DNA from: Spirochaetae bacterium HGW-Spirochaetae-1
GTDB lineage: Bacteria > Spirochaetota > UBA4802 > UBA5550
Direction of reading: 5' to 3'
Assembly (NCBI GenBank): GCA_002839375.1
Contig: PGXY01000003.1
Span: forward strand, 95,863-159,862
Length of the DNA stretch: 64,000 nucleotides
Position 1 is the first letter of the stretch, and each line of letters opens with the position of its first letter. Position numbers and translations under genes: made by a program. The notes under the pieces are model-generated. The model saw only the letters and a program-made list of their open reading frames with translations. It had not been told where the DNA came from and searched no databases. Of the stretch, positions 4,831 through 62,057 are shown piece by piece.

Positions 4831-5487
4831 TTACTTATTCGTTTCCGCAGCCTTTGAATATTTCAGAACATAGACGAACCGCATAAGGTTTCTTTCAACG
4901 GCGTTGATAATAACACCTCCGCCAAGAAAGGCCGATTCGATAAAACACTTGCATCCCTTTTCCATAACCTGGGCCACGGCATGGGCTTCATCGAAGTTGC
5001 TGCCGCCGCAGAGGGCCCCGTGATCTGCCAGGAGCACGCCGCTGCGGCGGCGCAGTCCCTTGAGGACGGACCGGATTTCTTTCTTACCCGGTGTTACAGT
5101 GAATGCGGCCACCTTAGCCGATGCGCCCACTATCTGGGCCATGTCATCGAGCATGGGCCGCACCTCGTGCCCCGCCTTTGAAGCCGTCATTATGTTAAGC
5201 TGCGTCGCATGCACCAGGGCATTCATTTTTTTCTTTTTCAGATAAACAGCGGCATGTAGAATATACTCCGGCGACGGCTTTGTTTTGCCTCCCCAGGAGA
5301 AATCCTCGAGACTCACGGCAACCATGTCATCGGGGCGGCATTTACCGGGGTCGGCGTTTTCCGGTGTGATGATCATACAATCGCTGAATCGGCAGCTTAT
5401 AACGCAGCCGGTTCCCTGGATAACTCCCTCTTCGGCGAGTTTTTCCATCCACCGGCATACCTGCTTTTTGGTTTCTTCCAGATTCAT
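4831..5487 (-). CDS. Class II aldolase/adducin-family protein, altered metal site
   Basis: 218 residues, whole-domain match to the class II (Zn-dependent) aldolase/adducin fold. The family acid (Glu74 in PSPEYILHAA) and one metal His (His156 in ADHGALCGG) are present. The usual HxH pair reads His93-Ala-Thr95 (VHATQLN), so the second ligand is replaced by Thr. The paralogue 3 bp upstream keeps HTH. GAGGTAATCC precedes the ATG. It could be a non-catalytic partner or have shifted metal chemistry. Last gene of an aminotransferase-aldolase-aldolase operon. Confidence 0.83.
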   Translation of the reverse strand: MNLEETKKQVCRWMEKLAEEGVIQGTGCVISCRFSDCMIITPENADPGKCRPDDMVAVSLEDFSWGGKTKPSPEYILHAAVYLKKKKMNALVHATQLNIMTASKAGHEVRPMLDDMAQIVGASAKVAAFTVTPGKKEIRSVLKGLRRRSGVLLADHGALCGGSNFDEAHAVAQVMEKGCKCFIESAFLGGGVIINAVERNLMRFVYVLKYSKAAETNK

Positions 5488-5490
5488 GGA

Positions 5491-6135
5491 TTACCTCTTC
5501 GCATATTTTTTCAGATAATATTCATGCATGCGCTTCACATCAAAGGCGCCGCTTTCTCCGGCTTCCTTCATGTACTGCTTCTCGATGTAGGCCGCGCACA
5601 TCTCTTCAAGTTTTTTTGAGACCATGAAGGCCTCGTTCATGTCGGCCCCGGCGCAAACGGCACCGTGGTTTGCCATGAGAGCTGCCTTGCGTCCCTGCAG
5701 CGCGGCTGCCGTACCCCGGGCAAGTTTCCCCGTTCCCGGCAGGGCATAGGGGGCCACCCTGACGGAAGAACCGACCAGGCGCGCCATCTCATCATCAATG
5801 GCCGGGACCTCCTTCCGGGCCGCAGCCACCGTGGAGGCATTCATCTGGTGCGTATGAACAACAGCGCCGATACCCCTGTCCAGTTTATACACCTCGGCAT
5901 GGAGACCCTTTTCCGATGAAGGCTTAATGTGGCTGTCATAGCTGAGATCAGCGATTTTCACTAAAACAATATCATCGGGCGTGAGGTCCTCATAGGTCCT
6001 TCCGCTGGGGGTTATGACAAAACTGTCATCATCGACCCGCACGCTGATATTGCCCCAGGTCCTGGCCACGAGTCCTTCCTTCAAAAGCTTAATGCCCGCT
6101 TCACACACGGTTTTTTTCGCCTGTTGTATATCCAT
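5491..6135 (-). CDS. Class II aldolase/adducin-family protein
   Basis: 214 residues, full length for the L-fuculose-phosphate aldolase / ribulose-phosphate epimerase superfamily. Metal ligands His94, His96 (VVHTHQMN) and His157 (MANHGAVCAG) and the acid Glu75 (SSEKGLHAEVY) are all visible, so it should be an active metal aldolase or a related epimerase/decarboxylase. The substrate is unknown. GGGAG lies 7 nt before the ATG. It starts 14 bp after the aminotransferase gene and is followed 3 bp on by its altered paralogue, so the two may form a hetero-oligomer (inference). Confidence 0.88.
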   Translation of the reverse strand: MDIQQAKKTVCEAGIKLLKEGLVARTWGNISVRVDDDSFVITPSGRTYEDLTPDDIVLVKIADLSYDSHIKPSSEKGLHAEVYKLDRGIGAVVHTHQMNASTVAAARKEVPAIDDEMARLVGSSVRVAPYALPGTGKLARGTAAALQGRKAALMANHGAVCAGADMNEAFMVSKKLEEMCAAYIEKQYMKEAGESGAFDVKRMHEYYLKKYAKR

Positions 6136-6149
6136 GATCGCTCTCCCTG

Positions 6150-7658
6150 TTATTTCACGCCCTCGATATTTTTAAATACGCGCTCGAAACGTTTCAGGGC
6201 GTCATCGATGACCGCATCACTCTGCGTGGCATTGGTATAGAGACGGCTCCCCGCCAGAGTAACCACGCCCTCGGCCATATAGGCGCAGCCCATATGTTCC
6301 ATAATCACTTTCCGCTCCTTGGCTCCCTTAATGGTGGCGGAAATAGTCCATGGTTTTTTCCAGTTCACATCGAGGAGCATGGTTCCTACGGTTTCCAGAT
6401 GGCAGATGGATCCCTGATTGAAGGCCACGAAGGGAAGATTGTATTTATTGATGAGGCTCTGGAGCCCCCTGGTCAGCCTGTCCCCGGCCCTTCCTGCTTT
6501 TTCAGCTGCATTCTGCTTTTCCATTTCACAGATGGTGAAATACCCCGCAGCCGAACTGAGCGGATTGGCCGCCATGGTTCCTCCCACAAGGGCCTTCTTC
6601 TGTTTGCCTCCGGCGATTCCGGCCGAAAGGAATTTCATGTATTCTTTCTTGCCGGCGAGTCCTCCAGCCGATGGATAGCCGCCAGCCAGGACCTTGCCGA
6701 GAACCGTGAGGTCCGGTGTCACACCGAAATAGCCCTGTGCCCCGCTGAGACCAATACGGAAAGCCGTGACGACTTCATCGAAAATGAGGAGTGCCCCATA
6801 TTTATCACAAAGCTGGCGCACCTGCTGGTTGAAATCCTTATCGAGTGGGCGTGTACCGCTTTCAGGACCGATGGGTTCCATGATGACGGCAGCCGTGCCT
6901 CCACGGAATTTGTTCAGCCACAGCCGCCGCTCGAGGGATTTGATGTCATTGGGATAAAATTCCTGCGTATACTTGAAACAGTTTCGGGGAACACCGTGGG
7001 CTTCCAGGTGCATGGTCCCCGGTAAACGGATGCCGTAGGCCAGCTGATCGCTCCAGCCGTGATAAGCACCACCCATCTTAATGATATATTTCTTCTTTGT
7101 TGCCAAACGGGCCACGCGGATAGCGGCCATGTCAGCCTCGGTACCGCTGCCCAGCATGCGGAGCATATCCACACCGGGCATGAGTTCGGCTACTTTTTTC
7201 GCCAGCAGGTATTCGTACTCATGAAAAAGACCGGTAACGGGACCGCATGTTTTCAGAAGCTCCATGACCTTGTCACGGACAACTTTCGGGTTGCTTCCCA
7301 GGACCGTAGGTCCCCCTGCCTGGAGAAAATCGATGTATTTATGCCCGTCCAGGTCGTAGAGATATCCTCCATCTGCCTTTGTAAAAACAAGGGGAAAGGG
7401 GTGGTTGAAGGCCAGATTATGCTGCACCCCCCCGGGGATATATTTCACGGCCTCGTCGATCATGGCTTTAGACTTCTTACATTCCCGGTAAAACCACTGC
7501 TCATAGGACTCCAGGGTTTCCTTTTTCAGCGTCCGTATGGGACTGCTGATCAGTTTATAGAGCTGCCGGTAAACCTCTTTTGTATCAGGGTATTCACTTA
7601 TGGCAAAACCCGTGGTTTGCATTGTTTCTTTCTTTGTTTTTCCCTTTGTTTGTTTCAT
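6150..7658 (-). CDS. Class III PLP aminotransferase / GSA aminomutase-like
   Basis: 502 residues. Typical fold-type I class III features are present: GSGTEA phosphate loop (171-175), GGAYHGW (196-202), LIFDEVVTAFR with the PLP-contacting Asp294, and TVLGKVLAGGYPS with Lys322 as the Schiff-base lysine. The closest family feel is glutamate-1-semialdehyde aminomutase, but about 70 extra residues precede the core and the neighbours are two aldolases rather than haem genes. It may therefore act in catabolism or synthesis of an amino-aldehyde or keto acid (inference). AGGAGG lies 5 nt before the ATG. First gene of the operon. Confidence 0.88.
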   Translation of the reverse strand: MKQTKGKTKKETMQTTGFAISEYPDTKEVYRQLYKLISSPIRTLKKETLESYEQWFYRECKKSKAMIDEAVKYIPGGVQHNLAFNHPFPLVFTKADGGYLYDLDGHKYIDFLQAGGPTVLGSNPKVVRDKVMELLKTCGPVTGLFHEYEYLLAKKVAELMPGVDMLRMLGSGTEADMAAIRVARLATKKKYIIKMGGAYHGWSDQLAYGIRLPGTMHLEAHGVPRNCFKYTQEFYPNDIKSLERRLWLNKFRGGTAAVIMEPIGPESGTRPLDKDFNQQVRQLCDKYGALLIFDEVVTAFRIGLSGAQGYFGVTPDLTVLGKVLAGGYPSAGGLAGKKEYMKFLSAGIAGGKQKKALVGGTMAANPLSSAAGYFTICEMEKQNAAEKAGRAGDRLTRGLQSLINKYNLPFVAFNQGSICHLETVGTMLLDVNWKKPWTISATIKGAKERKVIMEHMGCAYMAEGVVTLAGSRLYTNATQSDAVIDDALKRFERVFKNIEGVK

Positions 7659-8047
7659 TGGTTCCTCCTAATCCTTTCATCGGCGGTCTTCCGGACTTTA
7701 ACAGTATGATGAAGTGCCGTGACTACCCCTATCCGTCATATCCGTTTCATGGACGACGGGTGCGGTTATTCCGCTCTTCCTGACATAGTATGTATCAATA
7801 AAAATGCCCCTTGTCTTATCACAACCTGATTAATCATAAATTGGATACCATGAAATCAAACCAGGTTGCAACAATTTTCAGGGATATTCCCCATCTGTAA
7901 ACAATTTACTCCGGGAAAAGCAGTATCCCTACTGTCATATTTTACCTCTTTTATTCAGCCTGTCTATTGAAATATTTTACCATCGTAGCTATCCTGATAA
8001 TATATGCTTTTATTGAGAACGTCCATGTATATCACGGAACTCCAATT
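7659..8047. other. Intergenic region between divergent genes
   Basis: About 390 bp separating the aminotransferase operon from the Arg-rich repeat gene. It contains the AGGAGG site of the aminotransferase (7660s). I found no convincing promoter pair, hairpin or small gene. The frame of the Arg-rich protein stays open upstream to a TTG at 7967, which would add a hydrophobic N-terminus (KYFTIVAILIIYAF). Confidence 0.4.
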
Positions 8048-8470
8048 ATGACAATTATCAACCGGCGAAACAATCCCAGAAGGCAGGTAGAACGAAGGTA
8101 TTCTGAGCGCAGAGCACGGAGTAGAAGGAGTATAGACCTGGGAATTGCCGGAAGAGGAAGCTTCAGAGAGCGTTCCCCGAACGACCGCCGCCTGATGGAG
8201 CGGCGCCTTCATGACCGGCGCGACACGGATCGGCGTGTTGAAAACAGGGGAAGGTCTTTTTCCGCCGACATCACCGGGCGGGAGGGAAAGGACCGACGCC
8301 GCCTTGAAAGGAGAGGGGAGCAGCGCCGATATTCCGATCGCCGTAGTACAGCCAGCATCATCAGCCTGGCGATGAACCTCTGTGAGCGGAAACAACACGA
8401 CCGACGAAGCAATGAACGCCGCAGTATTGATCGCCGCGACATGGACCGCAGGCTGACGGAAGAGGATTGA
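8048..8470 (+). CDS. Arg-Arg pentad repeat protein (36-residue super-repeat)
   Basis: 140 residues from ATG 8048. The protein is built from pentads ending in RR: NNPRR, QVERR, YSERR, ARSRR, then four more such runs. Counting from this Met, RR pairs end at residues 12/17/22/27, 48/53/58/63, 84/89/94/99 and 120/125/130/135, so the four-pentad blocks recur exactly every 36 residues (108 bp). Spacers of 16 residues between blocks are less alike. It is very basic and lacks a known domain; nucleic-acid or acidic-polymer binding is possible but unproven. The ribosome site is weak, and a TTG start at 7967 would add a membrane-like N-terminus. Antisense frames exist but are of ordinary shadow composition. 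Confidence 0.65.
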   Translation: MTIINRRNNPRRQVERRYSERRARSRRSIDLGIAGRGSFRERSPNDRRLMERRLHDRRDTDRRVENRGRSFSADITGREGKDRRRLERRGEQRRYSDRRSTASIISLAMNLCERKQHDRRSNERRSIDRRDMDRRLTEED

Positions 8471-8544: not shown

Positions 8545-9771
8545 TTAATGAGGCCCGTTCAAATCTCTCTCGGGAAAAACCGGTAGATATTTTACCGCAA
8601 GGATATAGAGAAAAACCATGCTTACAAAAATCCCCGCTGTTACAAACACTTCCTGCGCCGAAGGAATATATGTATTAAACCTGCGCCAGGGAAAGCAGGG
8701 AACCGCGCATCCTCTTATGGTAAGCACCAGTTTATTGATGATCATTGCCGTCACTCCTGAAGCGGCGCCTGCCAGCATGCAGACATCCCTCTTTTTAAAA
8801 CCATTTAATAGTACGACAGAAACAGCCAGAAGAACAAGCTCCACCACGAGCAGATACATGCCATTGATACCACTCCAGAGTTCCGGGAAGCTTCTATCTG
8901 CAAGCGGAACATAATAGAAAGCCAGAATACAGATATCCACAATTCTCAAAATTAAAAATATTAAAAAGACATTGCCTGATATTCCCGCAAGCTTCCCGTA
9001 GGCGGCTCGCGGAATGGATTCCCTGCCGACTTTTATTTCATAGAAGCGTGTGACAAAAACAGTAAAAGATGATCCTGCCGCCATGGCCCCGATGATAGAC
9101 AGAAAAAAAAGATGGGGTCCGTACCATGCCGGGCGCGCATAGAGTACGCCGAAAAGCCCTCCCAGGGATCCCTGGTGGAAAAAGGAAAGAAAGGTTCCCG
9201 TTGCCGCCATTATCCACATCATCTTATGGAGATAGTGTCCCGCCTCCCGCAGAAACCGGTATTTTGCCAGCATCCGGTTTTTCAGAACAACCGGTGTAAA
9301 TTCCACGCAGAGTATACACAGGTACATGAGGACGCAGAAAGCCACCTCGGTCATCATGGAAACAGGCATCAGTCCTCTCCCCCAATTAGGATAGATATAG
9401 AGAAACCACGACCGAACAGGCTGGCCCACATCGAAAATAATAAAAACCGGCGTAAAAACATAACAAAGGAGACCAATTAGCACGGCCGAATTCACCAGGG
9501 GCTTTAATTCATCGATATGCAGAATGTAAAACATGAAACCGGTAAAAAATGCACCTCCTCCCAGGGCAATGAGACCCAGATCGCCCACAATCCACAAAGC
9601 CCAGGGCATATGATTGCTCATCCCTGTGCAGCCGAGCCCACCCAGTAAAACCTGAATTGCCGAAATGACGAATCCGGCTTCAATAATCAGTGCGGCATAT
9701 ATGACTACTCTCGTCTTCAGATTATATGAATTGATCCTCCCAATCAATCCCTTCACGGTCACTCTCTCCAT
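8545..9771 (-). CDS. NrfD/HybB-type membrane protein (quinone-interacting)
   Basis: 408 residues from ATG 9771, with GAGG 7 nt upstream. A frame open to 9849 would begin inside the promoter region and is rejected. About ten transmembrane helices with NrfD/PsrC-like features (GGGAFFTGFMFYI, FDVGQPVRSWFLYIYPNWGRG, HKMMWIMAATGTFLSFFHQGS). Family members oxidise or reduce quinone together with an iron-sulfur and usually a molybdopterin or cytochrome subunit; no such partner is encoded nearby. It lies 84 bp downstream of a TetR gene, with two palindromes in the gap. Confidence 0.85.
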   Translation of the reverse strand: MERVTVKGLIGRINSYNLKTRVVIYAALIIEAGFVISAIQVLLGGLGCTGMSNHMPWALWIVGDLGLIALGGGAFFTGFMFYILHIDELKPLVNSAVLIGLLCYVFTPVFIIFDVGQPVRSWFLYIYPNWGRGLMPVSMMTEVAFCVLMYLCILCVEFTPVVLKNRMLAKYRFLREAGHYLHKMMWIMAATGTFLSFFHQGSLGGLFGVLYARPAWYGPHLFFLSIIGAMAAGSSFTVFVTRFYEIKVGRESIPRAAYGKLAGISGNVFLIFLILRIVDICILAFYYVPLADRSFPELWSGINGMYLLVVELVLLAVSVVLLNGFKKRDVCMLAGAASGVTAMIINKLVLTIRGCAVPCFPWRRFNTYIPSAQEVFVTAGIFVSMVFLYILAVKYLPVFPERDLNGPH

Positions 9772-9795
9772 GGCTAACCTCACAATTTCAACTAT

Positions 9796-9850
9796 TAGAG
9801 TAATTACTCTACACAAATACATGTCTAGAGTATATACTCTATTTGTCAAT
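9796..9850 (-). promoter_or_regulatory. Twin TetR-type operators and promoter of the nrfD-like gene
   Basis: TAGAGTAATTACTCTA (9796-9811) and TAGAGTATATACTCTA (9826-9841) are both perfect 16-bp palindromes differing only in the central bases, with centres 30 bp apart. TTGACA sits at 9850-9845, six bases after the TetR stop codon, so the first palindrome falls in the -35/-10 spacer, a classical repressor position. The regulator encoded immediately upstream is the obvious candidate (inference). Confidence 0.65.
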
Positions 9851-25501: not shown

Positions 25502-26548
25502 ATGACCGAGCATATACATACCATATCAGTGGACGATGATGAATCCAACCTCCTTCTCATTGAAGCCATGGCTAAAGAGATGGATCTTTCTATACACTCT
25601 TTCGCCGATCCCCTGGAATCTTTGCAGTACATGAAGGAGAATACTATAGACCTGGCCTTCATCGATTACCAGATGCCCGGCATGAACGGCATCGACCTCA
25701 TCCGCCACATGCGGGACCTGCATCCCGAGGCCCCCATCATCATGATCACCAGCGTGAATACCGACAACAGCCTTCGTCTCAGGGCCATCGAAGCCGGCGC
25801 CACGGAGTTTCTCAACAAGCCCCTGAACATGCCCGAATTCAGGGCGCGCGTCAGCAACCTGGTGGATCTCCGCATGATGAACATGCTTCTGAAGGACAGG
25901 GCCATGCTCCTGAAGATAGAGGTAAGGAAGGCGACGGATAAAATAATAAGCCGCGAGCGCGAAACCCTGGAAATCCTGGGCCGCGTCGCCGACTACAATG
26001 ACCTGGAAACGGGAAGCCATATCACCCGGGTTGCCCATTACGCAAATATCCTGGCCGTCTCAATCGGTGAAACGGAAGAATTCAGGGATGTCATATTCAA
26101 TGCCTCGCCCCTTCACGACATAGGGAAGGTGGGCATACCGGACACGATTCTCCGCAAGGAAGGCCCTCTGTCGGAAGAAGAACAGGTCCTCATGCGGGCC
26201 CACCCTCTCATCGGTTACAACATACTGAAGTCGGCCGACAGCTCCTATCTCCGCAGCGGAGCCGTCATTTCCCTGCATCACCATGAACGCTTTGACGGAA
26301 GCGGGTATCCGGCCGGTTTGAAGGGTGTTGATATTTCCCTCATGGGACGTATAACCGCCATGTGCGACGTCTTCGATGCCCTCATGACAAAACGCCCCTA
26401 CAAAAGCGCCTGGAGCCTCGAGCATGTCATTGAATATTTTGAGACCGGCAGGGCAACTCACTTCGATCCCATGCTGGTGGATCATTTCATTAAAAACATC
26501 GACGCCTTCGTGAACATATTCACCAGCTTCGGGGATTCAGAGCCCTGA
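25502..26548 (+). CDS. HD-GYP response regulator, cyclic-di-GMP phosphodiesterase
   Basis: 348 residues. Receiver domain with acidic pocket VDDDE, phospho-Asp55 (AFIDYQMPG), Thr and Lys (LNKPL). A helical linker leads to an HD-GYP domain with SPLHDIGKVGIPD and HHERFDGSGYPAGL, both intact. These enzymes hydrolyse cyclic di-GMP. It is divergent from the hybrid kinase gene and ends 4 bp from the convergent REC-STAS gene, so the three form a signalling cluster. Confidence 0.93.
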   Translation: MTEHIHTISVDDDESNLLLIEAMAKEMDLSIHSFADPLESLQYMKENTIDLAFIDYQMPGMNGIDLIRHMRDLHPEAPIIMITSVNTDNSLRLRAIEAGATEFLNKPLNMPEFRARVSNLVDLRMMNMLLKDRAMLLKIEVRKATDKIISRERETLEILGRVADYNDLETGSHITRVAHYANILAVSIGETEEFRDVIFNASPLHDIGKVGIPDTILRKEGPLSEEEQVLMRAHPLIGYNILKSADSSYLRSGAVISLHHHERFDGSGYPAGLKGVDISLMGRITAMCDVFDALMTKRPYKSAWSLEHVIEYFETGRATHFDPMLVDHFIKNIDAFVNIFTSFGDSEP

Positions 26549-61942: not shown

Positions 61943-61970
61943 CAGCAATCTTTATATCCTATCCTTATTT

Positions 61971-62057
61971 AAGTCCCCCTCTGGGGGATTTAGGGGGGTA
62001 AGTCCCCCTCTGGGGGATTTAGGGGGGCAAGTCCCCCTCTGGGGGATTTAGGGGGCT
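61971..62057. repeat. Three tandem 29-bp GC-rich repeats
   Basis: Copies at 61971-61999, 62000-62028 and 62029-62057, each beginning AAGTCCCCCTCTGGGGG and ending in a G-run; they differ only in the last two positions. Each unit contains a CCCCC-TCT-GGGGG hairpin and a GGGGATTTAGGGGG G-rich strand. There are no spacers. They fill the gap upstream of the DUF559 gene and cover the stop codon of the GxxExxY gene. Confidence 0.9.

Follow-up and report, generated by a model that had tools for sequence, protein, structure and literature searches.

We describe a small, strongly basic bacterial protein, probably real, that is built of five-residue units ending in a pair of arginines and is encoded in the 64,000-nucleotide stretch of Spirochaetae bacterium HGW-Spirochaetae-1 DNA analyzed here (the window). 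Our best overall explanation, which we put forward only tentatively, is that this is a genuine basic pentad protein of spirochaetes, expanded by duplication of a 108-bp unit, with a putative helical tail that holds a polyanion. Judged by its sequence, it can be placed loosely in an unnamed set of spirochaete proteins with [DE]RR pentads, most often predicted to be short membrane proteins with a single pass and two pentad groups in the cytoplasmic tail. These unnamed membrane-anchored pentad proteins of one spirochaete order are a more interesting find than the basic-rod reading of the window open reading frame (ORF).

Repeat architecture and coding status

The protein running from ATG 8048 to the stop at 8470 has 43 arginines among its 140 residues, a net charge of +20 and a pI of 11.7. 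Its arginine pairs start at residues 6, 11, 16, 21 and 26, then at 47, 52, 57 and 62, at 83/84, 88, 93 and 98, and at 119, 124, 129 and 134. Spacing is thus 5 inside groups and 21 between them, giving a period of 36 residues or 108 bp, with each unit made of 20 residues of pentads and a 16-residue linker (Table 1). At lag 36 the protein is 0.365 identical to itself, compared with 0.129 for shuffled sequences (z 7.9), and lag 5 also stands out (z 5.8); neither value was reached in 2000 shuffles, and the top self-match lag of the ORF's DNA is 108. These figures confirm the pattern first predicted, RR pentads in groups that recur every 36 residues. The accompanying description of four blocks of four pentads holds for the number of groups, but group 1 contains five RR pairs, an NRR preceding its first full pentad. 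[DE]RR occurs 13 times in the protein, and the exceptions among the pentads include NPRR, RSRR and EQRR.

Table 1. Positions of the pentad ORF, its parts and the elements upstream of it, in window coordinates
Feature	Position	Strand	Remarks
Pentad-protein ORF, 140 aa from ATG	8048..8470	+	RR each 5 aa, groups each 36 aa
Pentad group 1, NNPRR QVERR YSERR ARSRR	8069..8128	+	
Linker 1, 16 aa	8129..8176	+	linker DNA similarity
Pentad group 2, PNDRR LMERR LHDRR DTDRR	8177..8236	+	
Linker 2, 16 aa	8237..8284	+	linker DNA similarity
Pentad group 3, GKDRR RLERR GEQRR YSDRR	8285..8344	+	
Linker 3, 16 aa	8345..8392	+	linker DNA similarity
Pentad group 4, QHDRR SNERR SIDRR DMDRR	8393..8452	+	
Possible in-frame N-terminal extension from TTG, hydrophobic stretch KYFTIVAILIIYAFI	7967..8047	+	frame open back to 7901
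Sigma-70-like promoter match TTGAAA-17-TATCCT	7967..7995	+	consensus match only; region has 8 vs 1.7 expected

The linkers speak to where the long period came from. Compared in register, the three have a mean DNA identity of 0.396, against 0.277 for codon-shuffled versions (p 0.0014), and a protein identity of 0.167 against 0.085 (p 0.049). This residual DNA similarity points to a 108-bp unit that was duplicated in tandem long ago, and the exact 36-residue blocks are well supported by the sequence as the product of that event. The relatives space their groups differently, with RR-to-RR gaps of 9, 10, 12, 13, 14, 15, 17 or 31, and ten helical turns are therefore no conserved rule. The idea that 36 residues were set by design to equal ten alpha-helical turns is unsupported on both counts.

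All six arginine codons are used in the ORF (CGC 14, CGG 7, AGG 7, CGA 6, AGA 6, CGT 3), the DNA identity of pentads within blocks averages 0.47, and no Tandem Repeats Finder array falls at 8048-8470. We therefore reject a plain arginine-codon microsatellite without conservation in relatives, the alternative raised with the original prediction, and relatives do exist. The window's only Tandem Repeats Finder array lies at 61970-62055, where a 29-bp unit occurs three times in nearly identical copies (TAAGTCCCCCTCTGGGGGATTTAGGGGGG); scanning the window for Rfam families and tRNAs gave no match. The maintenance of RR through six synonymous codons is the strongest argument for coding. Codon usage gives no help and does not resemble that of a gene: the ORF scores -0.06 bits per codon, the top of the six frames but lower than the 0.04 to 0.18 of seven neighbouring ORFs. 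An antisense ORF at 8209-8442 likewise shows RR spacing, which is expected because CGNCGN read in reverse can again give RR. The AGA and AGG codons present in group 1 yield no antisense RR, and so we take the sense frame to be the selected one.

Pentad proteins in spirochaetes and beyond

The window protein matched no family in Pfam or NCBIfam, which bears out the earlier statement that no described family has this form. A PDB sequence search gave no usable match, tblastn found none in plasmids and phages, a pattern search for related loci in genome contigs yielded 57 fitting stretches of which none was confirmed, and we found no description of the [DE]RR-pentad motif in the open-licence PMC literature. 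A DNA pattern for three pentads in a row ([DE]RRxx[DE]RRxx[DE]RR) was more productive, with eight matches in the protein's own genome against none for the reversed pattern. Four places in that genome carry pentads: the window, a 110-aa ORF (L002/L174), a 59-aa ORF (L003/L175) and the N-terminus of GrpE (L010/L188). The three-pentad pattern matches 13 of 59 genomes (own included), though part of these matches are out of frame or microsatellites (e.g. L013, L018, L027, L034), and phylum-wide it matches 27 of 296 (own included), of which most beyond the order are serine codons, microsatellites or wrong frames.

Nine ORFs of 84-139 aa share one layout: each has an N-terminal hydrophobic segment and, after it, two pentad groups with a linker between them. 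They are spread over six genomes of the host's family and order (one each in G000, G006, G033 and G042, two in G028, three in G024). The best 19-residue hydropathy of that segment is 2.06 to 3.29 in the eight of nine ORFs measured. In three other small pentad ORFs (L175, L181 and the second ORF of L183) no such segment is clear, and G006, from the host's family, carries two pentad ORFs on one contig. Across 16 sequences, D or E directly precedes RR in 101 of 126 cases, and by eye the linker RGFYxxKGFFD is kept in L177 and L182. An upstream gene suspected to be common to L174 and L177 was rejected, the candidates having no similarity.

An alignment of eight of the nine ORFs (A1) has 11 invariant columns, all arginine. 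Searched against 296 genomes, its profile found 14 at E <= 0.001 (own included), as well as two doubtful matches in distant families (E 5e-4 and 7e-4). The window locus matches at E 3.4e-6 and, with its four groups, shares the two or more RR-pentad groups of A1-type proteins. The score is strongly composition-driven (24.7 bits for the first domain, with a bias term of 24.1), and since the bias term nearly equals the domain score the match marks a shared kind of sequence and is not proof of descent.

The window protein may likewise be membrane-anchored, via the hydrophobic stretch encoded upstream of ATG 8048. The best 19-residue hydropathy there is 1.82 from TTG 7967 and 2.34 across the open frame, which exceeds dinucleotide shuffles (p 0.0285); equally high values, however, occur in 8% of the window's AT-rich open segments (243 of 2990). 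We rejected the profile match as proof of this segment, as shuffling the order of the upstream hydrophobic residues gave an equal or higher A1 score in 88 of 200 trials. Neither TTG 7967 nor ATG 8048 has a clear ribosome site, and the promoter match upstream would favour the ATG.

Its flanking genes, for a class-III aminotransferase (6150-7658) and an NrfD-like protein (8545-9849), both lie on the - strand, and the ORF is a lone + strand gene between them. No pentad ORF lies within ~1.5 kb of the NrfD-like neighbour at any of 19 relatives' loci (20 of 34 places were retrieved, one being the window itself), and the pentad gene may be a recent or easily lost addition at this site. Two adjoining class II aldolase-family genes sit beside the aminotransferase gene (4831-6135, -).

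Pentads also occur on proteins of unrelated kinds. A four-pentad DNA pattern matched at least 118 loci in genome contigs; among the matches listed, 31 loci lack an in-frame array, 17 of 89 arrays have a pentad DNA identity below 0.75, and the remaining arrays, being either microsatellites of 15-bp units or frames within GC-rich DNA, were discarded. Eight of the 17 were run through Pfam and two more are spirochaete ORFs of L136. One of the eight (L134) has no Pfam family; the other seven are examples among the matches listed and not rates, with pentads on SpoU rRNA methylases (L060, L068) and ribosomal protein S3 (L069), and inside CheA (L045), receiver-DUF4388 proteins (L088, L121) and a PilS-like kinase (L120). 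The spirochaete searches, separate from the four-pentad scan, added pentads inside CheR (L166) and on GrpE (L188), both by Pfam.

Two further sets were seen. In three genomes from the host's family GrpE is extended at its N-terminus by [DE]RR pentads (L188:5980-6735, L021, L022), with the GrpE identity resting on Pfam for L188 and assigned by eye for the others. A protein of ~360-400 aa, with no confident Pfam family, bears a pentad C-terminal tail in G003, G017, G018 and G019 (L184:5176-6249, L185:1-750, L240, L243), and in three of these four genomes (G003, G017, G018) a GCDANGxDRR linker separates the pentad groups.

What the pentad tail may do

Most likely the pentads would form a basic cytoplasmic tail, probably helical, whose role would be to bind a polyanion such as RNA, an acidic lipid or a cyclic dinucleotide. 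Single-sequence AlphaFold2 predicts helices at residues 10-33 and 44-139 of the window protein (mean pLDDT 76.1, pTM 0.32) and a single helix at 4-83 of the L136 relative (mean pLDDT 88.5), though single-sequence runs lean towards helices when a sequence is charged. The tail would then be one straight helix, rich in charge, whose acidic residues could each pair with two arginines, 4 and 3 positions earlier, while the surplus arginines would wind around the rod and hold RNA, acidic phospholipid or nucleotide. If translation begins upstream of ATG 8048, the tail would be tethered at the membrane. Of the basic, polyanion-binding rod originally proposed, the protein-level repeat, the charge and the predicted helix 44-139 survive and binding is a fair guess, but the ten-turn design is unsupported. 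That proposal overlooked both the relatives and the possible membrane segment ahead of its start codon.

Unlikely, but to be taken seriously, is the view that the pentads are an inert charged spacer, either a salt-bridged single alpha-helix or a disordered solubility tract, whose length and linker drift free of any ligand. That arginines are the sole invariant residues of A1 fits such a spacer, as do the variable pentad spacing and linkers, the patchy distribution, and the presence of pentads on unrelated proteins including the N-terminus of GrpE. It is less easily squared with linkers (RGFYxxKGFFD, GCDANGxDRR) that are kept between genera or species, or with small stand-alone pentad proteins that have little else to space. 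The charged single alpha-helices described in the excerpted text of PMC5347031 are alike in combining arginine with acidic residues, in the long predicted helix and in possible i/i+4 pairs; they are balanced in charge there, unlike the window protein at +20 with its strict five-residue RR period, and unlike the pentad relatives, which are mostly membrane-anchored.

A more specific proposal names the ligand as c-di-GMP. RRxx[DE]RR, which occurs in nine of nine proteins examined, contains both RxxD and RxxxR, motifs of the diguanylate cyclase I-site and of the PilZ domain. By analogy the pentad protein could be an arginine-rich receptor acting like the tail of CleD, its repeated units perhaps binding intercalated c-di-GMP dimers, a reading we regard as improbable. 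In the excerpted text of PMC5677366, CleD is one of the Cle proteins of Caulobacter, and its tail binds c-di-GMP through tandem [YF]xGP[DE][RK]R with the core [DE][RK]R. As described in those excerpts, the CleD-type arginine-rich region resembles the pentads in being a short tandem motif of arginine pairs, each preceded by an acidic residue, on a graftable tail; it differs in its [YF]xGP part, in its CheY receiver domain and in having far fewer repeats. Tandem [YF]xGP[DE][RK]R has no occurrence in the nine proteins, the [YF]xGP part is absent from all nine, and Pfam finds no CheY-like receiver domain in the window protein.

Gene neighbourhoods lend the c-di-GMP proposal some support. Genes of c-di-GMP type flank 3 of 12 small pentad ORFs and fill 3 of 24 neighbour slots (HD-GYP genes at L175 and L182, a YcgR-like gene at L174:7024-8184) against 0.39 expected (P(>=3) 0.007); the expectation takes ~76 such genes in the own genome and an assumed 1.1 kb per gene, but it applies one genome's rate to others and the category was picked after the data were seen. 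The other 21 slots hold unrelated or unnamed genes. Pentads inside CheA, CheR, receiver-DUF4388 and PilS-like proteins also favour a signalling ligand of this kind, but the same pentads sit on GrpE and ribosomal S3.

The own genome matches HD_5 17 times, GGDEF 49 times and PilZ 13 times (nine PilZ over the cut-off), and one HD-GYP (HD_5) gene lies in the window at 25997-26473 (G000:C3:121859-122335), ~18 kb from the pentad ORF. The YcgR-like gene at L174 has no Pfam match of its own; two homologs in the same genome, similar over nearly their full length, match PilZ with 24.9 bits and, slightly below the cut-off, 21.9 bits. In one own-genome copy it is the C-terminal region that has a PilZ match, just over the cut-off. 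Such proteins of ~380 aa (L189-L218) occur in 41 of 59 genomes (own included), in up to four copies. A tie between the YcgR-like gene and pentad ORFs was rejected, the [DE]RR tract being present, by eye, only at the own-genome locus among these 30 loci. The L174 gene is possibly of the kind with a GAF-like insertion that PMC11800159 describes among spirochaete YcgR-like proteins; it is a neighbour of the paralog and no relative of the pentad protein.

Rather doubtful is the broader scheme in which [DE]RR pentad tails would be a portable polyanion or c-di-GMP module, serving as membrane-tethered sinks or scaffolds in one spirochaete order and grafted onto chemotaxis and two-component proteins elsewhere, with the window protein as a four-fold multivalent version.

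We give similarly little credence to a soluble nucleic-acid binder, protamine-like or RNA-binding, that starts at ATG 8048. With the promoter match at 7967-7995 the leader would end at that ATG, the pI is high, and pentads occur on SpoU methylases and S3; however, most relatives have a membrane segment, and an acidic residue in most pentads should weaken nucleic-acid binding. The arginine-rich extensions of SpoU and S3 (L060, L068, L069) carry [DE]RR pentads as the window protein does, but there they extend a folded RNA-binding protein, whereas in the window protein the pentads are nearly the whole.

Very improbable indeed is an untranslated intergenic frame that is open by chance: codon usage not distinct from other frames, RR spacing in the antisense ORF and the absence of an ortholog at the 19 relatives' loci all speak for it, but it does not account for six different arginine codons retaining RR, for AGA/AGG in group 1 that cannot make RR antisense, or for a sense-frame motif common to paralogs and relatives.

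Pentad proteins are invisible to current family libraries whichever reading is true. If the pentads are inert, they would offer a natural series of salt-bridged arginine helices of graded length. If instead they bind nucleotide or RNA at the membrane, an unannotated class of 60-140 aa proteins would gain both a function and a simple motif.
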